Below, in pieces: positions 41,256-48,803 of a DNA stretch of 64,000 nt. Under the pieces are notes generated by a model. That model was not told where the DNA came from and ran no database searches. It saw only the letters and a list, made by a program, of their open reading frames with translations. The stretch covers positions 620,001-684,000 of the forward strand of contig NZ_CP035119.1 of assembly GCF_004087835.1 (NCBI RefSeq). The letters are read 5' to 3'. Position 1 is the stretch's first letter. Every line of letters begins with the position of its first letter. This stretch comes from Halorussus pelagicus (GTDB lineage Archaea; Halobacteriota; Halobacteria; Halobacteriales; Haladaptataceae). A program made the position numbers and the translations under genes.

Positions 41256-41342
41256 ATGAAAGCTCCGTCACGAATGAATCGAACTACACCACTCCCGAGA
41301 GCGGGAATCGCCGGACAGATGCCCGAGGTGACCGACGTATGA
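41256..41342 (+). CDS. Upstream mini-ORF (28 residues) overlapping nrdJ
   Basis: The frame encodes KAPSRMNRTTPLPRAGIAGQ and ends PEVTDV. Its TGA stop overlaps the nrdJ ATG (ATGA at 41339-41342). A Shine-Dalgarno-like GGAGG lies seven bases before its ATG, whereas no such site is seen directly before nrdJ itself. Ribosomes finishing this ORF could re-initiate at nrdJ. The peptide is basic and Pro/Arg-rich, unlike normal haloarchaeal proteins, so it may be translated for control rather than function. Confidence 0.5.
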   Translation: MKAPSRMNRTTPLPRAGIAGQMPEVTDV

Positions 41343-44300
41343 GCGGTGCGGGCGAACTGACGGCCGACGAACTCACGCTCCCGATCAAGCGGACCGAGGG
41401 CGAGACCCTCGAAGACCGACTTACTGGAAACGCGTACCACAATATTCTACCAGCACGCTATCTCCGCAAGAACGCGGACGGGGACCTCATCGAGGAGCAG
41501 GAGGGCCTCTTCCCGCGCGTCGCCGAGAACATCGCCTTGGCCGAAGCGGTCTACGAGGCCGAGAAGCGCGACGAAGAAGTCACAGTCACGCCCGACCAGC
41601 TCAAGCCCGACCATCCCCGCCGCGACGAACTCGCCGGGGAAGTCTTTGGGAAAGGCACCACCGTCGAGGACGACGCCGAAACGACGCTCTCTGTCTACAA
41701 CGTCAACAAGTTCTCCTACGAGACCGTCGTTCCGGAACTTCCCGACGAGATTCGCACCCACGTCGAAGACGTGCGCGAGGAGTTCGAGACCCTGATGGAG
41801 GACCTCTCCTTTATGCCGAACTCGCCCACCCTGATGAACGCGGGCGACGAACTCCAACAGCTTTCGGCCTGTTTCGTCGATTCGCCGGACGACGATATCA
41901 CCAACATCCACCAGACCGCAAAGGAGGCCGCAGAAGTCTTCCAGAGCGGCGGCGGCATGGGCTATGCCTTCTGGCGACTCCGACCCTACGGCGACGCGGT
42001 GGGTAGCACGGGCGGCATCGCCTCCGGTCCCATCACGTTCATGCGGACATACGACCAGATGTGCGAGACCATCGCGCAGGGCGGTGCGCGGCGCGGCGCA
42101 CAGATGGGCGTCATGCGCGTCTCTCACCCCGACGTTATCCAGTTCATCCACGCGAAGAACAAGGACGTGAGCCTCGCTCACAGCCTCCGTCTGAACGACC
42201 CCGACGACTACACTCACAACTCGTTCAAAGACGCACTCGAAGAGGCCCGCGAACTCATCGACGACGAGGGTCGCGTCCCCAAGCACCTCCGGAACGCCGC
42301 CGAGGGCCACCTCTCGAACTTCAACATCTCGGTGGGCGTCACCGACGACTTCATGGAGGCCGTGAAGAACGGCGAGGAGTTCACCTTCACGAACCCGCGG
42401 ACGGAGGAACCCCACATCGCCACCGAACACACCAAAGAACTCTACGAGATGTTCGACCTCGGCGAACACGTCGAGGTGGGCGAGGAACTGTCGATTCCCG
42501 CGGAACTCCTCTGGAGTCGCATGGTCGATGGTGCCCACGAGAACGGTGAACCCGGTGTCATCTACCTCGAGCGCGTCAACAAGGAACATTCGTTCGACGT
42601 CGAGGAACACCCCGACCACCGGATTCTGGCGACCAACCCCTGTGGCGAACAGCCTCTCGAAGAGTACGAGGCCTGCAACCTCGGCCATATCAACCTCTCG
42701 ACGCTCGCGGACACAGACGCGCCCGACTGGCGGGTCTGGTACGACGACCACGGCGACGAGTACGACGACTTCGAGGCGGCCGTGGACGCCTTCCTCGCCG
42801 ACGCGATGGCGTGGGACGACTTCGACCACCGCATCGAGTACGGCACCCGGTTCCTCGAAAACGTCGTCACGATGTCGGACTTCCCGGTCGAGAAGATAGA
42901 GCAGAAGGTCCGGGAGATGCGCAAAATCGGACTGGGCATCATGGGACTGGCCCAACTTTACATCCAACTCGGCGTCGAGTACGGTAGCGACGCCGGAAAC
43001 GAAATCGCGCGCCAGTTGATGCAGTACATCAACCACGAGAGCAAGTGGACCTCCCACGAACTCGCCGAGGAGCGCGGGTCCTTCGAGGAGTGGGACAAGA
43101 GCAAGTACGCGAACCCGACCGAGTACGCCGAGTGGTTCGAAAAGCAGACCGGCCTGAGCGCCGACGACTGGGAGGACGGCTTCCAGATTCGGAACCACAA
43201 TACGACGACCATCGCCCCGACCGGCACCACCTCGATGGTCGGCAACACCACGGGCGGGTGTGAACCCATCTACAACGTCGCCTACTACAAGAACGTCTCC
43301 GACGACGTGCAGGGCGACGAGATGCTCGTGGAGTTCGACGACTACTTCCTCCGGACGCTGGAGGACAACGACATCGACGTTGAAGCGGTCAAACAGGAGG
43401 CCCAAGAGCAGATGGCGGCAAACGAGTTCGACGGCGTCGATGGGCTGAGTACCGTCCCGGACGCCATCGGCGAACTGTTCGTCGTGACCTCCGACCTCTC
43501 TGGCAAGGACCACGCCGCGGTGCAGTGCGCCTGTCAGGAGGGCGTGGACTCGGCCATCTCGAAGACCTGTAACTTCCCGAACGACGCGAGCAAAGAGGAC
43601 ATGCGGGAAGTCTACGAGTACATCTACGAGAACGGCGGCAAGGGCGTGACCGTCTACCGCGACGGCACCCGCTCGAAGCAGGTCCTCACGACTCGCGCGG
43701 ACAACAAGGAGTTCGCCGACGAGAGCGAGGCCGCCGAGACGCTCGTCGAACAGATCAACGAGGTCTTCGGCGGCATCGACGGCTTCCTCGACAACGAGGA
43801 CGTGCAGGCCGCACTCGACCGGGAAGTCGAGTCCATCCTCAAAATTGCCGACGGCGAGGACGGCGACGGTCCGTACGCCAGCAAGCGCCCCCGGCCCGAC
43901 GTGCTTCACGGCATCACCCAGCGCATCGACACCGGGTACGGCAAACTCTACGTCAACATCAACGAGGACGAACATGGCCGACCCTTCGAGCTGTTCGCCA
44001 ACATCGGCAACTCCGGCGGCTTCACCGCCTCGTTCACCGAGGCGCTGGCCAAGACCATCTCGACCGCGCTCCGCTCGGGCGTCGATCCCTCGGAAATCGC
44101 CGACGAGCTACGAGGCATCCGGAGTCCGAAGGTCGCGTGGGACAAGGGCGAGCAGATAAACTCCATCCCGGACGCCATCGGCACGGCCCTGCGCCGGTAT
44201 CTCGACGGCGAAGTCGAGAAAGCCTACCCCCAGCAGAAGAACCTCACCGAGGTCGAAGAGGGAGTCGAGCGGCGTTCGGAGCCGGAAACCGACGGTAGCG

Positions 44301-44446
44301 GTGCGGTCGCAACCAGCAAGGAGGCCGACCGGCAGGACATCATCGACTCGGGCGAGAGCCCCGAGTGTCCCGACTGCGGGTCGCTGTCGCTGTACTACTC
44401 CGAAGGCTGCAAGACCTGCGAGTCCTGTGGCTGGAGCGAGTGCTGA
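41339..44446 (+). CDS. nrdJ: Class II (B12-dependent) ribonucleotide reductase
   Basis: A 1035-residue adenosylcobalamin-dependent enzyme that makes deoxyribonucleotides without oxygen. [20 protein letters not shown], the first reducing cysteine in [29 protein letters not shown] and the active-site block [20 protein letters not shown] are intact; [18 protein letters not shown] follows. The C-terminal tail ends with CPDCG, CKTC and CGWSEC, a zinc-type cluster typical of long NrdJ proteins. No intein interrupts it. Its start overlaps an upstream mini-ORF. Confidence 0.96.
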   Translation: [1035 protein letters not shown]

Positions 44447-44607
44447 CTCCGGATTGACTCCGGACTGACGGCGTCTTTTTTCGACGGCGGGCCAGAGCGA
44501 TTCGGTCGGTCGATGAGTTCGGGTCGGCGGAGAGAAACGACCGGCGCAGTCGCTCGGGCGAGTCACCGGACGAAACAGTCTTGGCGCTCGCTGCCCGTCG
44601 TCGGAGC

Positions 44608-44766
44608 ATGAGCGATTCGGTAGAAAGCGGAGACGGCGACGACACGTCCAGCGAGCAAGGCGGCCGCCCGTGTCCCATCTGCGAGACGCCGCTGTACTCC
44701 CGACACTGCAAGTACGTCTGTCCGCAACACGGCGTAATCATGGATTGCGCTGACACCTTCTACTAG
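44608..44766 (+). CDS. Small CPxC zinc-finger protein, 52 residues
   Basis: The product has an acidic disordered N-terminus (SDSVESGDGDDTSSEQGG) and a compact metal-binding part: RPCPICETPLYSRHCKYVCP followed by QHGVIMDCADTFY. Five cysteines and two histidines can form one or two zinc sites. Haloarchaea encode many such small proteins, often involved in adaptation; the role of this one is unknown. Its stop directly abuts that of the convergent membrane gene at 44767. Confidence 0.8.
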   Translation: MSDSVESGDGDDTSSEQGGRPCPICETPLYSRHCKYVCPQHGVIMDCADTFY

Positions 44767-45054
44767 CTACTTCATCGTGACCCACGTCAGGAACGCGATG
44801 GCCACGAACTGCAAGCCCCGAAGCACCAGCACGGCCTGCTGGACGGTCGGGTCCCCCGAGTAGAGCATCTTCATGCTGAAGAAGAAGTAGATTGCGACCA
44901 CGTTCTCGGCGAGCATGACGCTCCCGAACGCGACCAGTCCGAGCAGTAACGAGGTCCGGAACTTCCGGTAGTTGCGGACCCAGACGGTCGTGAGCAGGCC
45001 GAGCAGGAGGATGTTCACGACCGCGATTCCGCTGGCGAACTGTATCGTACTCAT
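44767..45054 (-). CDS. Small membrane protein (DUF7521-like)
   Basis: A 95-residue protein with three to four hydrophobic helices (FASGIAVVNILLLGLLTTVW, TSLLLGLVAFGSVMLAENVV, VLVLRGLQFVAIAFLTWVTM) and the loop VRNYRKFRTS. It matches the layout of 23578-23850 and 23840-24157. As there, it lies directly downstream of a winged-helix regulator gene (34 bases away). Last gene of the molybdoenzyme unit. Function unknown. Confidence 0.75.
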   Translation of the reverse strand: MSTIQFASGIAVVNILLLGLLTTVWVRNYRKFRTSLLLGLVAFGSVMLAENVVAIYFFFSMKMLYSGDPTVQQAVLVLRGLQFVAIAFLTWVTMK

Positions 45055-45088
45055 GTTGTGGTCTCCGTGTCAGTCGGTCGGTTCCGTA

Positions 45089-45364
45089 TCATTCGATGTG
45101 TTCGATGATTTCCTCGAACGCTTCGCGGTGCTGTTCGAACTGGTCGGTGAGGAAGTAGAGCTTCCCGTACTCGTTGTCTCCCGGTTCGACGACGCCGTGG
45201 TCTTCGAGCATGTCGAGGTGGTGGCGCACCGTCTTGTACCGCACGTCGAGCGCGTCGGCGAGTTGGTTGGCGTTGCGTGGGCGCTCGGAGAGTTCGCGGA
45301 TGAGTCGCGCGCGGTTCTCGCCGCCGCGGGTCGCCGTGAGCAAGTACCAGAGCGCCTTGTCCAT
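45089..45364 (-). CDS. ArsR-like winged-helix regulator
   Basis: A 91-residue protein with a single winged helix: LLTATRGGENRARLIRELSE, RPRNANQLADALDVRYKTVR and HHLDMLEDHGVVEPGDNEYG. It contains no cysteine, so a thiol redox switch is excluded. It lies 36 bases downstream of the molybdoenzyme gene and is followed by the small membrane protein, so it may regulate the unit or receive a signal from the membrane protein. Confidence 0.85.
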   Translation of the reverse strand: MDKALWYLLTATRGGENRARLIRELSERPRNANQLADALDVRYKTVRHHLDMLEDHGVVEPGDNEYGKLYFLTDQFEQHREAFEEIIEHIE

Positions 45365-45400
45365 CTGCTGTCTTTCGATTGTCAGTCACGACGCTTATAC

Positions 45401-46927
45401 TTACGGCTCGACGCGTTTCGAGACCCACCCGGACGGCCCGCTCGGGAAGGGATTGGTCTCTTCACTCGGTTGCAGGTCGCCCTCGCCGTCGGTGGCGCGG
45501 ACGACGACCTCGTGCGGTTCGGCCGCCTCGTAGGTGTACTCCCACTGTCGCCACGCGTCCTCGGCGGGCAACCGCTCGGAGAGCGTCGCCTCGCTCCACG
45601 AGTCGCCGCCGTCGGTCGAAACCTCGACTCGCCGGATACCTCGCGTACCCGCGTAGGCGTGGCCGCCGACCTGTATCTCGGTCCCGCCGCCCGCGGCGTC
45701 GCCGAGGCGATTTACGGTGTGGAGTTTGGCGACGGTGTTGACGGGACCGGTGCCGTGCCACCCGCGCTTCTCCCAGTACCCTTTCGCTTCCTCCTCTAGC
45801 ACCTCGATTTCGGTGAGCCACTTCACGTTTATCTCGCCCCAGTGGCCCGGAATCAGCGCCCTGACGGGGTAGCCGTGGCCGCGGGGGAGCGCCTCGCCGT
45901 TCATCTCGAAGGCCAGAAAGCCGTCTTCGAGCGCCGACAACGGGAACTCCTCGAAGTAGTCGTCGGCGGCGCGGAGCATGACACAGCACTCGTCGGTCTC
46001 GATACCCGCCGAGTCGAGCAGGTCCATCACGGGCACGCCGGTCCAGAGCGCGGTGTCCATCTTCTTGCCGTTCAGGCGCTCGCCGACGCATCGCAGGGTG
46101 ACGAACCGGTGTTCGGTCGCGTCGTTCATCCCGGCCAAGTCGTCGTAGTCGAACTCGACCTCCTCCTCGACCGCGCCGGTCACGCTGAGCGTCCAGTCCT
46201 CTCGGTCCGGAGTCGGGTCCACGTTGTTAATATCGACCTGATAGAACTGCTCGCTGACGAGCGGCTCGATGCCGTCCACATCGAGGGATTTGTCTCCGGC
46301 CTCGTCCAGTAGGGACTGGACCCCGGCCGAAATCTCGCCGTCGGCGTCGGGCACGTCGCCGCCCTCGCGGGTCCCGAGGACCGCGCCGACGCCGCCGACC
46401 GCGAACGCGCCAGCGACCGCTTGGAGGACGCGCCGCCGGGCCGACCGGGAGGAGTCGGCGGTCTCCGACTCTCGGTCCACGCCGAGCGACGCGAGCGCGA
46501 CCACGAGACCAGCGCCCGCACCGGCCGCGAGCGTGGAGACTGCCGACCCCGTGAGCGCCAGCGCGACGGCGACGCAGGCCACGGGCGCGACTGCGAACGG
46601 CGGGACCGCGAACCGGTCGGCGAGGAGGGCGGCGACTGCGGTCGTCAACGCGAAGAGACCGACCGTGAGCGCGAGCGCCAGCAGGAACCCGAGTTGCGCC
46701 CCGAGGTTGCCGAGGGTCTGGATGGACCACGCGACGACCGCGTCGGGCGTCGAAGCGACCACGACCTCGCTTATCGGCGCGGCGACGAACGCGGGCGTCC
46801 GGCCGACCGCGGCGTAGGACCCCGCGACGCCCGCGACTCCGGCCGCGCCCGCGACGACGGTCGAAGCGAGGAGACCCCGCGAGTCGCGGCGGTCGAGGAC
46901 GCCCCCCGCGTCGGGTCGGTCGCTCAC
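45401..46927 (-). CDS. Membrane-anchored molybdopterin oxidoreductase, SUOX fold
   Basis: A 508-residue protein in two parts. Residues 1-190 contain four to five hydrophobic helices; the last is preceded by SARRRVLQAVAGAF (residues 162-175), a twin-arginine-like motif inside the protein. Residues ~195-508 are a sulfite-oxidase-type Moco domain with the probable molybdenum-ligand Cys280 in VTLRCVGERLNGKKM, the GHGYPVRALIPGHWGEINVK block and a C-terminal dimerisation-like domain. The Moco domain should be outside the cell. No heme-binding domain is visible. The substrate could be sulfite or a sulfoxide; the coupled methionine-rich protein favours methionine sulfoxide. The start overlaps that gene's stop by four bases. 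Confidence 0.88.
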   Translation of the reverse strand: MSDRPDAGGVLDRRDSRGLLASTVVAGAAGVAGVAGSYAAVGRTPAFVAAPISEVVVASTPDAVVAWSIQTLGNLGAQLGFLLALALTVGLFALTTAVAALLADRFAVPPFAVAPVACVAVALALTGSAVSTLAAGAGAGLVVALASLGVDRESETADSSRSARRRVLQAVAGAFAVGGVGAVLGTREGGDVPDADGEISAGVQSLLDEAGDKSLDVDGIEPLVSEQFYQVDINNVDPTPDREDWTLSVTGAVEEEVEFDYDDLAGMNDATEHRFVTLRCVGERLNGKKMDTALWTGVPVMDLLDSAGIETDECCVMLRAADDYFEEFPLSALEDGFLAFEMNGEALPRGHGYPVRALIPGHWGEINVKWLTEIEVLEEEAKGYWEKRGWHGTGPVNTVAKLHTVNRLGDAAGGGTEIQVGGHAYAGTRGIRRVEVSTDGGDSWSEATLSERLPAEDAWRQWEYTYEAAEPHEVVVRATDGEGDLQPSEETNPFPSGPSGWVSKRVEP

Positions 46928-47391
46928 GGTCGCCTCCGCGCGATGTAGAGCGCGCCCACTAGCGCGACCAGTGCCGCGCCGACGCCGAATCCGGGCGCGA
47001 ACGCGCTGGACTCGTCGTCCGAATCGGCGGTGGTCTCGCTCATCGAGTCGTCGTTCATGCTCTCGCTGGTGGTATCGGCCATCGAGTCGTCGGACATCGA
47101 ATCGGTCGTCTCGTCCATCGACTCGTCGCTCATCGAGTCGCCCTCACAGGTCGTCGTTTCCGAGTCCATGGATTCGTTACCCATCATCTCGGTCGTCTCG
47201 GTCATCGATTCGTTGTCCATCATCTCGCCATTCGTCGTCTCACTCATCATTGCGGTCGTCTCGTTCATCGACTCGTCGCCCATCATCTCGCTGGTCGTCG
47301 GGCCGCACTCGGTCGTCTGCTGGGCCGTAATCGGCGCGACGCAGACTGTGAGTAGTACCACTGCCACCGTAATCGATGTTGCAAATCGCAT
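46924..47391 (-). CDS. Methionine-rich surface protein with PGF-CTERM anchor
   Basis: The 155-residue product starts RFATSITVAVVLLTVCVAP (signal peptide, cleavage near TAQ) and ends with APGFGVGAALVALVGALYIA followed by RRR, a PGF-CTERM sorting signal for lipid anchoring by an archaeosortase. The ~107-residue mature stretch between is a low-complexity string of Met, Glu, Asp, Ser and Thr with 17 methionines, built from units such as ESMNETTAMM and ESMTETTEMM, plus two cysteines. Three sequons may carry glycans. Its stop overlaps the molybdoenzyme start by four bases, so the two are coupled. A sacrificial oxidant sink or a metal-binding protein is inferred. Confidence 0.85.
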   Translation of the reverse strand: MRFATSITVAVVLLTVCVAPITAQQTTECGPTTSEMMGDESMNETTAMMSETTNGEMMDNESMTETTEMMGNESMDSETTTCEGDSMSDESMDETTDSMSDDSMADTTSESMNDDSMSETTADSDDESSAFAPGFGVGAALVALVGALYIARRRP

Positions 47392-47486
47392 GATTCTACC
47401 GGCGAGAGCCACCCTAAAAGGGATTTTTCGAAGTTCGGACCCACTCCGTTCCCGGTTCGGGCCGACTCCGTTCCAAATTCGTTCCA

Positions 47487-47528
47487 ACTTCCCCTGCGAC
47501 TGCTCAATTGAGCAGTCGCAGGGGAAGT
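47487..47528. repeat. 42-bp perfect palindrome
   Basis: Two 21-base arms (ACTTCCCCTGCGACTGCTCA+A and its exact complement) meet without a spacer. It can form a 21-bp hairpin in RNA or a cruciform in DNA. It lies between the VTT gene's stop and the methionine-rich gene's start. The right arm plus three bases recurs at 47573-47596. Confidence 0.8.
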
Positions 47529-47572
47529 CCGCGGTGCGGTCGAACGGTCGGTGGCGAAGTCCGCGATAGTCG

Positions 47573-47596
47573 TTGAGCAGTCGCAGGGGAAGTCCG
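47573..47596. repeat. Direct repeat of the palindrome arm
   Basis: These 24 bases are identical to 47508-47531 (TTGAGCAGTCGCAGGGGAAG followed by TCCG), 65 bases further on. Together with the palindrome this gives three copies of one 21-base unit within 110 bases, which suggests duplication of a site. Confidence 0.75.
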
Positions 47597-47622
47597 AGAG
47601 AAAACACTGCCGGAGCGTCACG

Positions 47623-48270
47623 CTACCGCCGGGCGCTCGCGGCGCGATACGCCGGTCCGGCCAGAAGCGCGACGGCGACCGCGGCCCCCGCGGCCAGCAG
47701 TTCCCAACTAATCGCGGTCAGTCCGGCCGTCGAGAGACTGTCGAGCGACCCACCGGCGAGGACCGCCGCGACGGTCCACGGTATCTCGCCGACCGCGGTC
47801 CCGACGACAAACGCGCCGGTCGAGACGCCCGAGAGACCCGCCGCGGCCGAGACGGGGTCGGAAGGCGCGGGCGCGAGTCGGGAGGCGACCATCCCGCGCA
47901 GGTCGCCGGTCGCCGCGAAGAACCGCTCGCCGGAGTCGCCGAGGCGCGCGACCAGCCCCGACCCCGCGCCGACGTAGCGCGCCGCGAGGAACGGCAGGAG
48001 CGCGCTCGCGGTCGTGCCCGAAAGCGCGACCGGGAAGCCCCAGACCGGACCGTAGGCGTAGCCCGCGAGAATGGCGACGAGCGTGGTGGGCCACGCGAAC
48101 AGCGGCCGGACGAGGTAGACGCCGACGAGGAGGACGCCGAAGACGACCGGGCGGTCCGCGAGATCGCTGGCGACGCCGAACAGGCGGTCCGGGGCGACGA
48201 GCAGGCTGGCGGCCGCGACGACCGCGAGGAGGGCGAGTCCGGCCACTTGGCGGCGCGCGACGTCGGCCAT
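47623..48270 (-). CDS. VTT-domain membrane protein (TVP38/DedA family)
   Basis: This 215-residue protein has five to six helices. The VTT-domain core is PLFAWPTTLVAILAGYAYGP, TTASALLPFLAARYVG and GEIPWTVAAVLAGGSLDS. Proteins of this superfamily have been linked to lipid scrambling and membrane homeostasis. It is transcribed in the direction of the methionine-rich operon but separated from it by a large palindrome that may terminate its mRNA. Confidence 0.82.
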   Translation of the reverse strand: MADVARRQVAGLALLAVVAAASLLVAPDRLFGVASDLADRPVVFGVLLVGVYLVRPLFAWPTTLVAILAGYAYGPVWGFPVALSGTTASALLPFLAARYVGAGSGLVARLGDSGERFFAATGDLRGMVASRLAPAPSDPVSAAAGLSGVSTGAFVVGTAVGEIPWTVAAVLAGGSLDSLSTAGLTAISWELLAAGAAVAVALLAGPAYRAASARR

Positions 48271-48389
48271 CGCTCCGTGGTTCCCGTTCGGCGGGTATCC
48301 TCTTTTTGGGTCGGGGGCGTCGGAGCGACCGCCGGAGAATCGTCCGCTTCGCGCAAGGTTTAATCCGGCTCGCGGGCGACTCCGGAGTG

Positions 48390-48803
48390 ATGGCCGACGA
48401 CGAGGACGGAACGAGCGGTGGTCCCACCGACGGCGAAGAGAGCGCGAGCGACGCCGACCCCGTGGAACTCGGCGTCGAACTCCTCTCGAAGCTCGAACAC
48501 CCCGAGCTTTCGGTCGCCGAGGCGGTTGACCGCATCGAGACCGTCACCACCCATCCCGCGACGACCCGGAAGATTCTGGACGAGGCCGAGAAGCGCGGCG
48601 TCATCGAGCGCGAGAACGGCATCGTCACGACCACCGGTGGTGGGTACGTCAGCTTCCAGAGCGAGGTCGTCACCAAGGAAGGCGACTTCTCCTGTCAGCG
48701 CTGTGGCGCGAGCATCTCGACGGGCCACTTCATCAAACTCGACGCGGGAGAACACGGCGCGTTCGGTCCGGAGTGCATCCGGAAGGTGACGGGTCGGGAC
48801 TGA
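48390..48803 (+). CDS. HTH/zinc protein (DUF5830-like)
   Basis: A 137-residue protein. After a disordered acidic N-terminus comes a small helical, HTH-like region (VELGVELLSKLEHPELSVAE to RKILDEAEKRGVIERENGIV). The C-terminus has a zinc site, FSCQRCGASISTGHFIKLDA followed by GEHGAFGPECIRKVTG. The layout corresponds to the haloarchaeal family annotated DUF5830. DNA or RNA binding is likely, function unknown. The ATG at 48390 is chosen because the frame upstream is not protein-like. Confidence 0.8.
   Translation: MADDEDGTSGGPTDGEESASDADPVELGVELLSKLEHPELSVAEAVDRIETVTTHPATTRKILDEAEKRGVIERENGIVTTTGGGYVSFQSEVVTKEGDFSCQRCGASISTGHFIKLDAGEHGAFGPECIRKVTGRD

Follow-up and report, generated by a model that had tools for sequence, protein, structure and literature searches.

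A recurrent haloarchaeal operon couples a methionine-rich surface protein to a membrane-anchored molybdoenzyme: a putative methionine redox shield

In bacteria, operons that join a methionine-rich peptide to the MsrPQ system are induced by hypochlorous acid and protect against it, and the precedents include bcrXQP of Brucella melitensis and yedYZ-mrpX of Azospira suillum (PMC8315932). According to a 2020 paper, no molybdenum sulfoxide reductase other than MsrP has been identified outside the dimethyl sulfoxide (DMSO) reductase family (PMC7759655). A 2018 review on archaeal methionine sulfoxide reductases describes MsrP as uncommon and the sulfite oxidase family as widespread in archaea, and its passages on these enzymes make no mention of a methionine-rich partner (PMC6211008). 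Here, we analyze a locus in a 64,000-nucleotide stretch of the Halorussus pelagicus genome (contig NZ_CP035119.1, positions 620,001 to 684,000; the whole stretch is referred to as the window), in which the gene of a methionine-rich surface protein (the Met gene and Met protein) directly precedes that of a membrane-anchored molybdoenzyme of the sulfite oxidase (SUOX) fold. The coupling of these two genes in haloarchaea is well supported, and we consider it fairly probable that they form a haloarchaeal methionine redox shield, in which the surface Met protein would act as a renewable oxidant sink that is restored by the membrane molybdoenzyme. By analogy, the best reading of the unit is that of a haloarchaeal counterpart of MrpX-MsrPQ built with a different reductase. 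An archaeal methionine-rich protein linked to a SUOX enzyme was not found in the open-access literature, in agreement with what an original prediction for this DNA had supposed, which is weak evidence because subscription literature lies mostly outside that scope.

The features of the locus are as follows.

46924..47391, minus strand: methionine-rich surface protein, 155 amino acids (aa), with a signal peptide, an acidic methionine-rich core, and a PGF-CTERM anchor
45401..46927, minus strand: membrane-anchored SUOX-fold molybdoenzyme, 508 aa, identified by profile matches, an AlphaFold2 model, and alignment
45089..45364, minus strand: winged helix-turn-helix (HTH) regulator, ArsR-like (HTH_20/HTH_5), 91 aa, identified by profile matches
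44767..45054, minus strand: small membrane protein, 95 aa, for which profile scans gave no family above cut-off
47410..47432, minus strand: conserved promoter-like element (TTCGAAAAATCCCTTTTAGG), about 39 nt before the ATG of the Met gene

The original prediction had described an exported PGF-CTERM protein whose stop overlaps the start of the SUOX gene by four bases, followed closely by an HTH regulator and a small membrane protein, and this layout holds. The SUOX gene begins with a GTG inside the stop codon of the Met gene, with an overlap of 4 bases, and is followed after 36 bases by the HTH gene and after a further gap of 34 bases by the gene of the small membrane protein. In 15 of the 16 loci from Halorussus, Haladaptatus, and Halomicrococcus, the promoter-like element (CGAAAAAT..CTTTTAGG) precedes the Met gene by about 39 nt, so that the operon begins with the Met gene wherever that gene is present.

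The Met protein has three parts.

Residues about 1-23: signal peptide
Residues 24-129: acidic methionine-rich core with 17 methionines
Residues 129-154: PGF-CTERM anchor

It has the makeup of a PGF-CTERM surface protein, namely a signal peptide, a C-terminal PGF motif, a hydrophobic stretch, and a basic tail, and the anchor is matched over cut-off by both Pfam PF18204 (22.8 bits, cut-off 18.8) and TIGR04126 (34.9 bits, cut-off 24.5). Methionine makes up 17 of the 106 residues of the core, as against a frequency of 1.26% over the remaining window genes (binomial p 3.5e-14). Those genes reach at most 7 methionines per 70 residues, and nine further PGF-CTERM candidates encoded in the genome have 1-4 per 70 residues. 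Among six close orthologues of the Met protein, 84% of the methionine positions are kept, followed by serine (69%), glutamate (59%), and aspartate (40%). By composition count, the core is devoid of histidine and the whole protein of lysine, and an NCBIfam scan returned no match to the MXKDX-repeat family. A chance or low-complexity artefact was considered and rejected on the methionine enrichment, the kept methionine positions, and the specificity of the association with the enzyme.

The linkage is not peculiar to the genome in which it was originally noticed. The searches for methionine-rich proteins used profiles, a DNA pattern, and scans of loci rather than an exhaustive proteome survey. 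A full-length orthologue of the enzyme is present in about 20 of 28 genomes of the same family; in 16 of the 20 best orthologue loci (L001-L003, L005-L016, and L019), the gene immediately upstream encodes a methionine-rich PGF-CTERM protein. The loci L004, L017, L018, and L020 have no Met gene, and the next upstream gene there encodes a VTT-domain protein. All open reading frames (ORFs) of 80 further enzyme loci from named haloarchaea (897 kb) were scanned for methionine-rich acidic stretches; 14 such ORFs immediately precede the enzyme gene on its own strand, and the five remaining matches, at other places, comprise one antisense ORF and ordinary large proteins. By a looser automatic test, a methionine-rich acidic ORF is found directly upstream on the same strand in 33 of 102 enzyme loci, a set that includes the same genomes from two collections, and inspection by eye added L019 together with the weak cases L085 and L095. 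The pair is thereby present in about 30 distinct haloarchaeal genomes of several families.

The upstream Met proteins are built to at least three anchor or domain designs: PGF-CTERM, Tat-type (twin-arginine translocation) lipoprotein, and spondin-like lipoprotein. The PGF-CTERM design is seen in Halorussus, Halomicrococcus, Haladaptatus, Halostella, Halorientalis marina, and a member of the Haloarculaceae with (SMTDD)n repeats. A lipoprotein with a Tat-type lipobox is found in Halonotius, Halobaculum, and Natronomonas aquatica, and a lipoprotein with a methionine-rich linker followed by a spondin-like domain (PF06468, over cut-off in one protein and just under it in another) in Haloferax mucosum, Halogranum amylolyticum, and Natronomonas. 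Natrinema has a weak case of a lipoprotein in which the methionine-rich linker precedes a DUF7482 domain. The presence of the Met gene on the enzyme tree requires 13 changes (68 rows, quick method); judged from these sequences, the association either arose several times or was often lost, and the different anchor designs favor repeated building over frequent loss.

The association was also approached from the opposite direction by a blind DNA scan with a pattern for methionine-x-acid-acid-x-methionine, with the reversed pattern as control. In the 28 genomes of the family, 12 of the 13 matches fall inside the Met gene and the reversed control gives 0. Across 293 genomes of the order, the pattern gives 52 matches in all versus 8 for the reversed one; most are isolated matches within ordinary genes, and inspection covered the matches of this larger scan apart from eight single ones. 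Eight of the nine genomes with a recognized methionine-rich protein among the inspected matches have it beside the enzyme. In the genome G315, a short protein with methionine-rich acidic repeats is encoded upstream of a 44% identical enzyme, with an HTH gene and a small membrane protein gene nearby.

The SUOX enzyme is organized as follows.

Residues 13-188: membrane helices, about five, in the AlphaFold2 model
R164-R165: internal twin-arginine motif
Residues 239-385: molybdenum cofactor (Moco) domain, with Cys280
Residues 415-490: Mo-co dimerisation domain

The original prediction had correctly recognized a SUOX fold with N-terminal helices, but missed the C-terminal dimerisation domain and the internal twin-arginine motif. 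The enzyme has the SUOX fold with Moco and dimerisation domains and the molybdenum-ligating cysteine, and is matched by the Oxidored_molyb profile at 132 bits and by Mo-co_dimer (PF03404) at 38.2 bits over residues 415-490. In the AlphaFold2 model (mean predicted local distance difference test score, pLDDT, 90.5), which replaced an earlier model from a shallow alignment (pLDDT 61), about five predicted membrane helices precede residue 190 and the SUOX domain follows. The fold comparison was run on the whole model, and in it the membrane part gave no separate match. All 96 of 96 homologues carry R164-R165, inside the chain and ahead of the last predicted membrane helix (SxxRRRVLQAVAGAF...), as in a twin-arginine signal, and the motif would fit Tat export of the folded Moco domain. 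Going by what is generally known of Tat signals, the four helices before R164-R165 and an N-terminus inside would place the twin arginine in the cytoplasm and the Moco domain outside, near the Met protein. Both partners are predicted to reside on the cell surface. Among 197 sampled genomes of the phylum, this membrane SUOX family turned up only in members of the same order.

The best fold matches of the enzyme are sulfite oxidases, with the chicken enzyme at Z 28.6 and a root-mean-square deviation of 2.5 over 288 residues, dimer domain covered, versus Z 16.4 over 199 residues for MsrP. Sequence models score 116 bits for SorA, 111 for SoxC, 87 for SorT, and 47 for MsrP, none of them over cut-off, and the curated MsrP model PRK05363 reaches 46.9 bits against a cut-off of 207. 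An identity with MsrP was rejected on the presence of the dimer domain, the predicted membrane helices, the internal twin-arginine motif, the model score below cut-off, and the lack of an MsrQ partner. Of the proposal that the archaeal pair is an MsrP-type system, what survives is a recurrent haloarchaeal unit with predicted surface partners and an enzyme that has lost sulfite-binding residues; the enzyme itself is not the counterpart of MsrP.

In chicken sulfite oxidase, sulfite is held by Arg138, Arg190, Tyr322, and Arg450 (PMC5856855). The alignment was read at the first three of these positions. The equivalent of Arg138 is Asp in 91 of 95 homologues and Ser otherwise, in a region of low similarity where the alignment column may be off by one, although the family consensus has no Arg there. 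The Arg190 loop is absent in all aligned homologues, and Trp replaces Tyr322 in each of the 95 homologues aligned at that position. The alignment retains the molybdenum-ligating Cys280 (all 95 covering sequences), Trp295, and the His, Arg, and Lys that bind the Moco (His351, Arg356, and Lys369). Since the three sulfite-binding residues are gone, a reductase role appears the more natural reading of the sequence, and a sulfite oxidase function seems unlikely.

Four proteins of the genome contain an Oxidored_molyb domain. A separate SUOX protein with canonical CSGNGR and YIRNHY (RNH) motifs and a Tat signal is encoded next to a halocyanin-like gene (L136:3403-4887; G000:C1:2959402-2960886); it offers another candidate for sulfite oxidation and is likely the true sulfite dehydrogenase of the genome. 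The same genome encodes a second membrane SUOX paralogue, about 55% identical (L135:4047-5576; G000:C1:1424046-1425575), which groups on the tree with two paralogues of other Halorussus (L029 and L030), and a recognized Met gene is present at 0 of these 3 loci. An MsrQ-type cytochrome would have been the expected electron partner of an MsrP, but the whole genome contains no Ferric_reduct match (the E. coli control was positive), and the membrane part of the enzyme has no conserved heme site, the commonest histidine column being occupied in 28 of 97 homologues. With neither an MsrQ homologue nor a conserved histidine, it must be assumed that the enzyme draws its electrons directly from quinol or from a soluble carrier such as halocyanin.

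A mechanism for the proposed shield can be outlined from these features. Haloarchaea are exposed to strong light in brines close to chloride saturation, a setting in which reactive halogen species can plausibly be expected. One promoter would drive both the surface-anchored Met protein and the membrane-anchored molybdoenzyme. Hypochlorous acid, other reactive halogen species, or peroxide would oxidize the exposed methionines of the surface protein to methionine sulfoxide, and the catalytic domain of the molybdoenzyme, on the same outer face, would reduce the sulfoxides back, so that the Met protein could serve as a renewable sink and contribute to hypochlorite resistance. The HTH regulator and the small membrane protein would probably sense the stress or tune expression.

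Several observations weigh against this shield. The enzyme is closer to sulfite oxidases than to MsrP in overall fold and sequence, and Glu104 and Tyr231, residues around the metal in MsrP, are not kept in its alignment, so that the active site would match neither of the two. The placement of the catalytic domain outside relies on the predicted model for the twin arginine and the topology. The genome G428, the one exception in the scan with the methionine pattern, encodes a protein of 540 residues with methionine-rich acidic repeats (L149:544-2166) and no SUOX gene within 1.5 kb, and the locus itself contains no pointer to oxidants. Finally, an adjacent Met gene is missing from about two thirds of the enzyme loci. 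The Met protein thus cannot be the only substrate of the enzyme, which most likely repairs other envelope proteins as well.

This last point leads to the alternative that survives best, and which we regard as possible, if tentative: the enzyme may be a general extracellular sulfoxide (or N-oxide) reductase for envelope proteins, with the Met protein as one client or as an electron-buffering accessory gained and lost many times. Besides the many loci that lack a Met gene, its irregular distribution on the enzyme tree fits such a role, as do L004 and L018, both without a Met gene, in which the promoter-like element stands directly before the enzyme gene. A known parallel is E. coli MsrP, which repairs general envelope proteins (PMC7759655). 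Taken alone, a general reductase leaves unexplained why very different anchored proteins carry the same methionine-rich stretch at the same position; it overlaps with the redox shield and differs from it in emphasis.

A metal trap, in which the surface methionines bind Cu(I) or Ag(I) and the molybdoenzyme protects those methionines or acts elsewhere, appears unlikely to us. Methionine-rich motifs of several bacterial copper proteins bind these ions, and a reductase beside such a site would be sensible because oxidized methionine loses copper binding; the regulator is, moreover, ArsR-like. However, its matches to metalloregulator models are weak and below cut-off, and the methionine core lacks histidine, unlike many copper methionine domains. 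The flanks of the operon (window 41339-48803), which are kept in many haloarchaea, encode a ribonucleotide reductase, a small CPxC zinc-finger protein, and a VTT-domain membrane protein, and these recurrent neighbors include no copper genes, within flanks that were not exhaustively searched.

The regulator also bears on a redox sensor, in which oxidant and enzyme would together determine how far the Met protein is oxidized, and the small membrane protein would detect this state and pass it on to the HTH protein. An HTH gene adjoins the enzyme gene in 43 of the 80 named loci, that is, in 19 of 20 loci with a Met gene versus 24 of 60 without (Fisher p 1.3e-5, kinship of genomes ignored), and the genome holds no close paralogue of the small membrane protein, both of which speak for this reading. 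We nevertheless find a sensor improbable, as the HTH and small membrane protein genes are also present where the Met gene is not, and no recognizable signaling domain is found. In Halonotius (L089:3684-4258 and L092:3624-4198), these two genes are found beyond the Met gene and on the other strand; there, they move as a unit and stay at the locus.

That the enzyme is a sulfite dehydrogenase and the Met protein an unrelated low-complexity surface stalk is very improbable, for although SorA, SoxC, and chicken sulfite oxidase come out on top in the family and PDB comparisons and the Mo-co dimerisation domain is present, the Arg138, Arg190, and Tyr322 equivalents are missing in all aligned homologues, the canonical motifs are carried by another SUOX protein of the genome, and the association is too specific for a stalk.

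Between the VTT-domain gene and the Met gene lies a perfect 42-base palindrome at window 47487-47528 (ACTTCCCCTGCGACTGCTCAA and its complement), with a third copy of its arm at 47573-47594. The 22-base arm has no other occurrence in the genome at up to 2 mismatches.

If the methionine redox shield is real, the haloarchaeal enzyme would be a second molybdenum sulfoxide reductase outside the DMSO reductase family, and a sacrificial methionine sink would have arisen in archaea from other parts. We are more hesitant about a broader claim, to which we would give not quite an even chance, that the enzymes represent a second class of molybdenum methionine sulfoxide reductase, one that was assembled independently and belongs to the sulfite oxidase family: membrane-anchored, Tat-dependent, of the dimer-domain type, with no heme partner, and regenerating methionine shields that haloarchaea built several times from different anchored proteins. 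The proposal offers a function for an uncharacterized haloarchaeal SUOX family, and it is amenable to direct testing, since the genetically tractable genus Haloferax has relatives.

Compared with sulfite oxidases, the haloarchaeal enzyme shares the overall fold and the Moco and dimerisation domains of SorA/SorT and chicken sulfite oxidase, but differs in the missing Arg138, Arg190, and Tyr322 equivalents and in the added membrane helices and internal twin-arginine motif. Like E. coli MsrP (YedY), it has a Moco domain with the conserved cysteine and no sulfite-binding arginines, as well as a FYxx...DP segment before the Moco domain (FYQVDINNVDP in the haloarchaeal enzyme, FYEFGLDKADP in MsrP). 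The two are, however, only 24% identical over 192 residues, and MsrP is soluble, has no dimer domain, and uses MsrQ, so that the haloarchaeal enzyme is set apart from bacterial MsrPQ by its membrane helices, its dimer domain, and the lack of an MsrQ cytochrome. At the level of the operon, the resemblance to MrpX-YedYZ and BcrXQP lies in an exported methionine-rich low-complexity protein encoded directly beside an exported SUOX-fold molybdoenzyme. Unlike the lysine-containing MXKDX peptides MrpX and BcrX, the haloarchaeal Met protein is acidic and anchored through PGF-CTERM or a lipid, and an HTH regulator takes the place of the extracytoplasmic function (ECF) sigma factor of the bacterial system. 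By analogy, the haloarchaeal unit would work like MrpX-MsrPQ, but by the MsrP, MsrQ, and MXKDX features tested it is not a member of that system.

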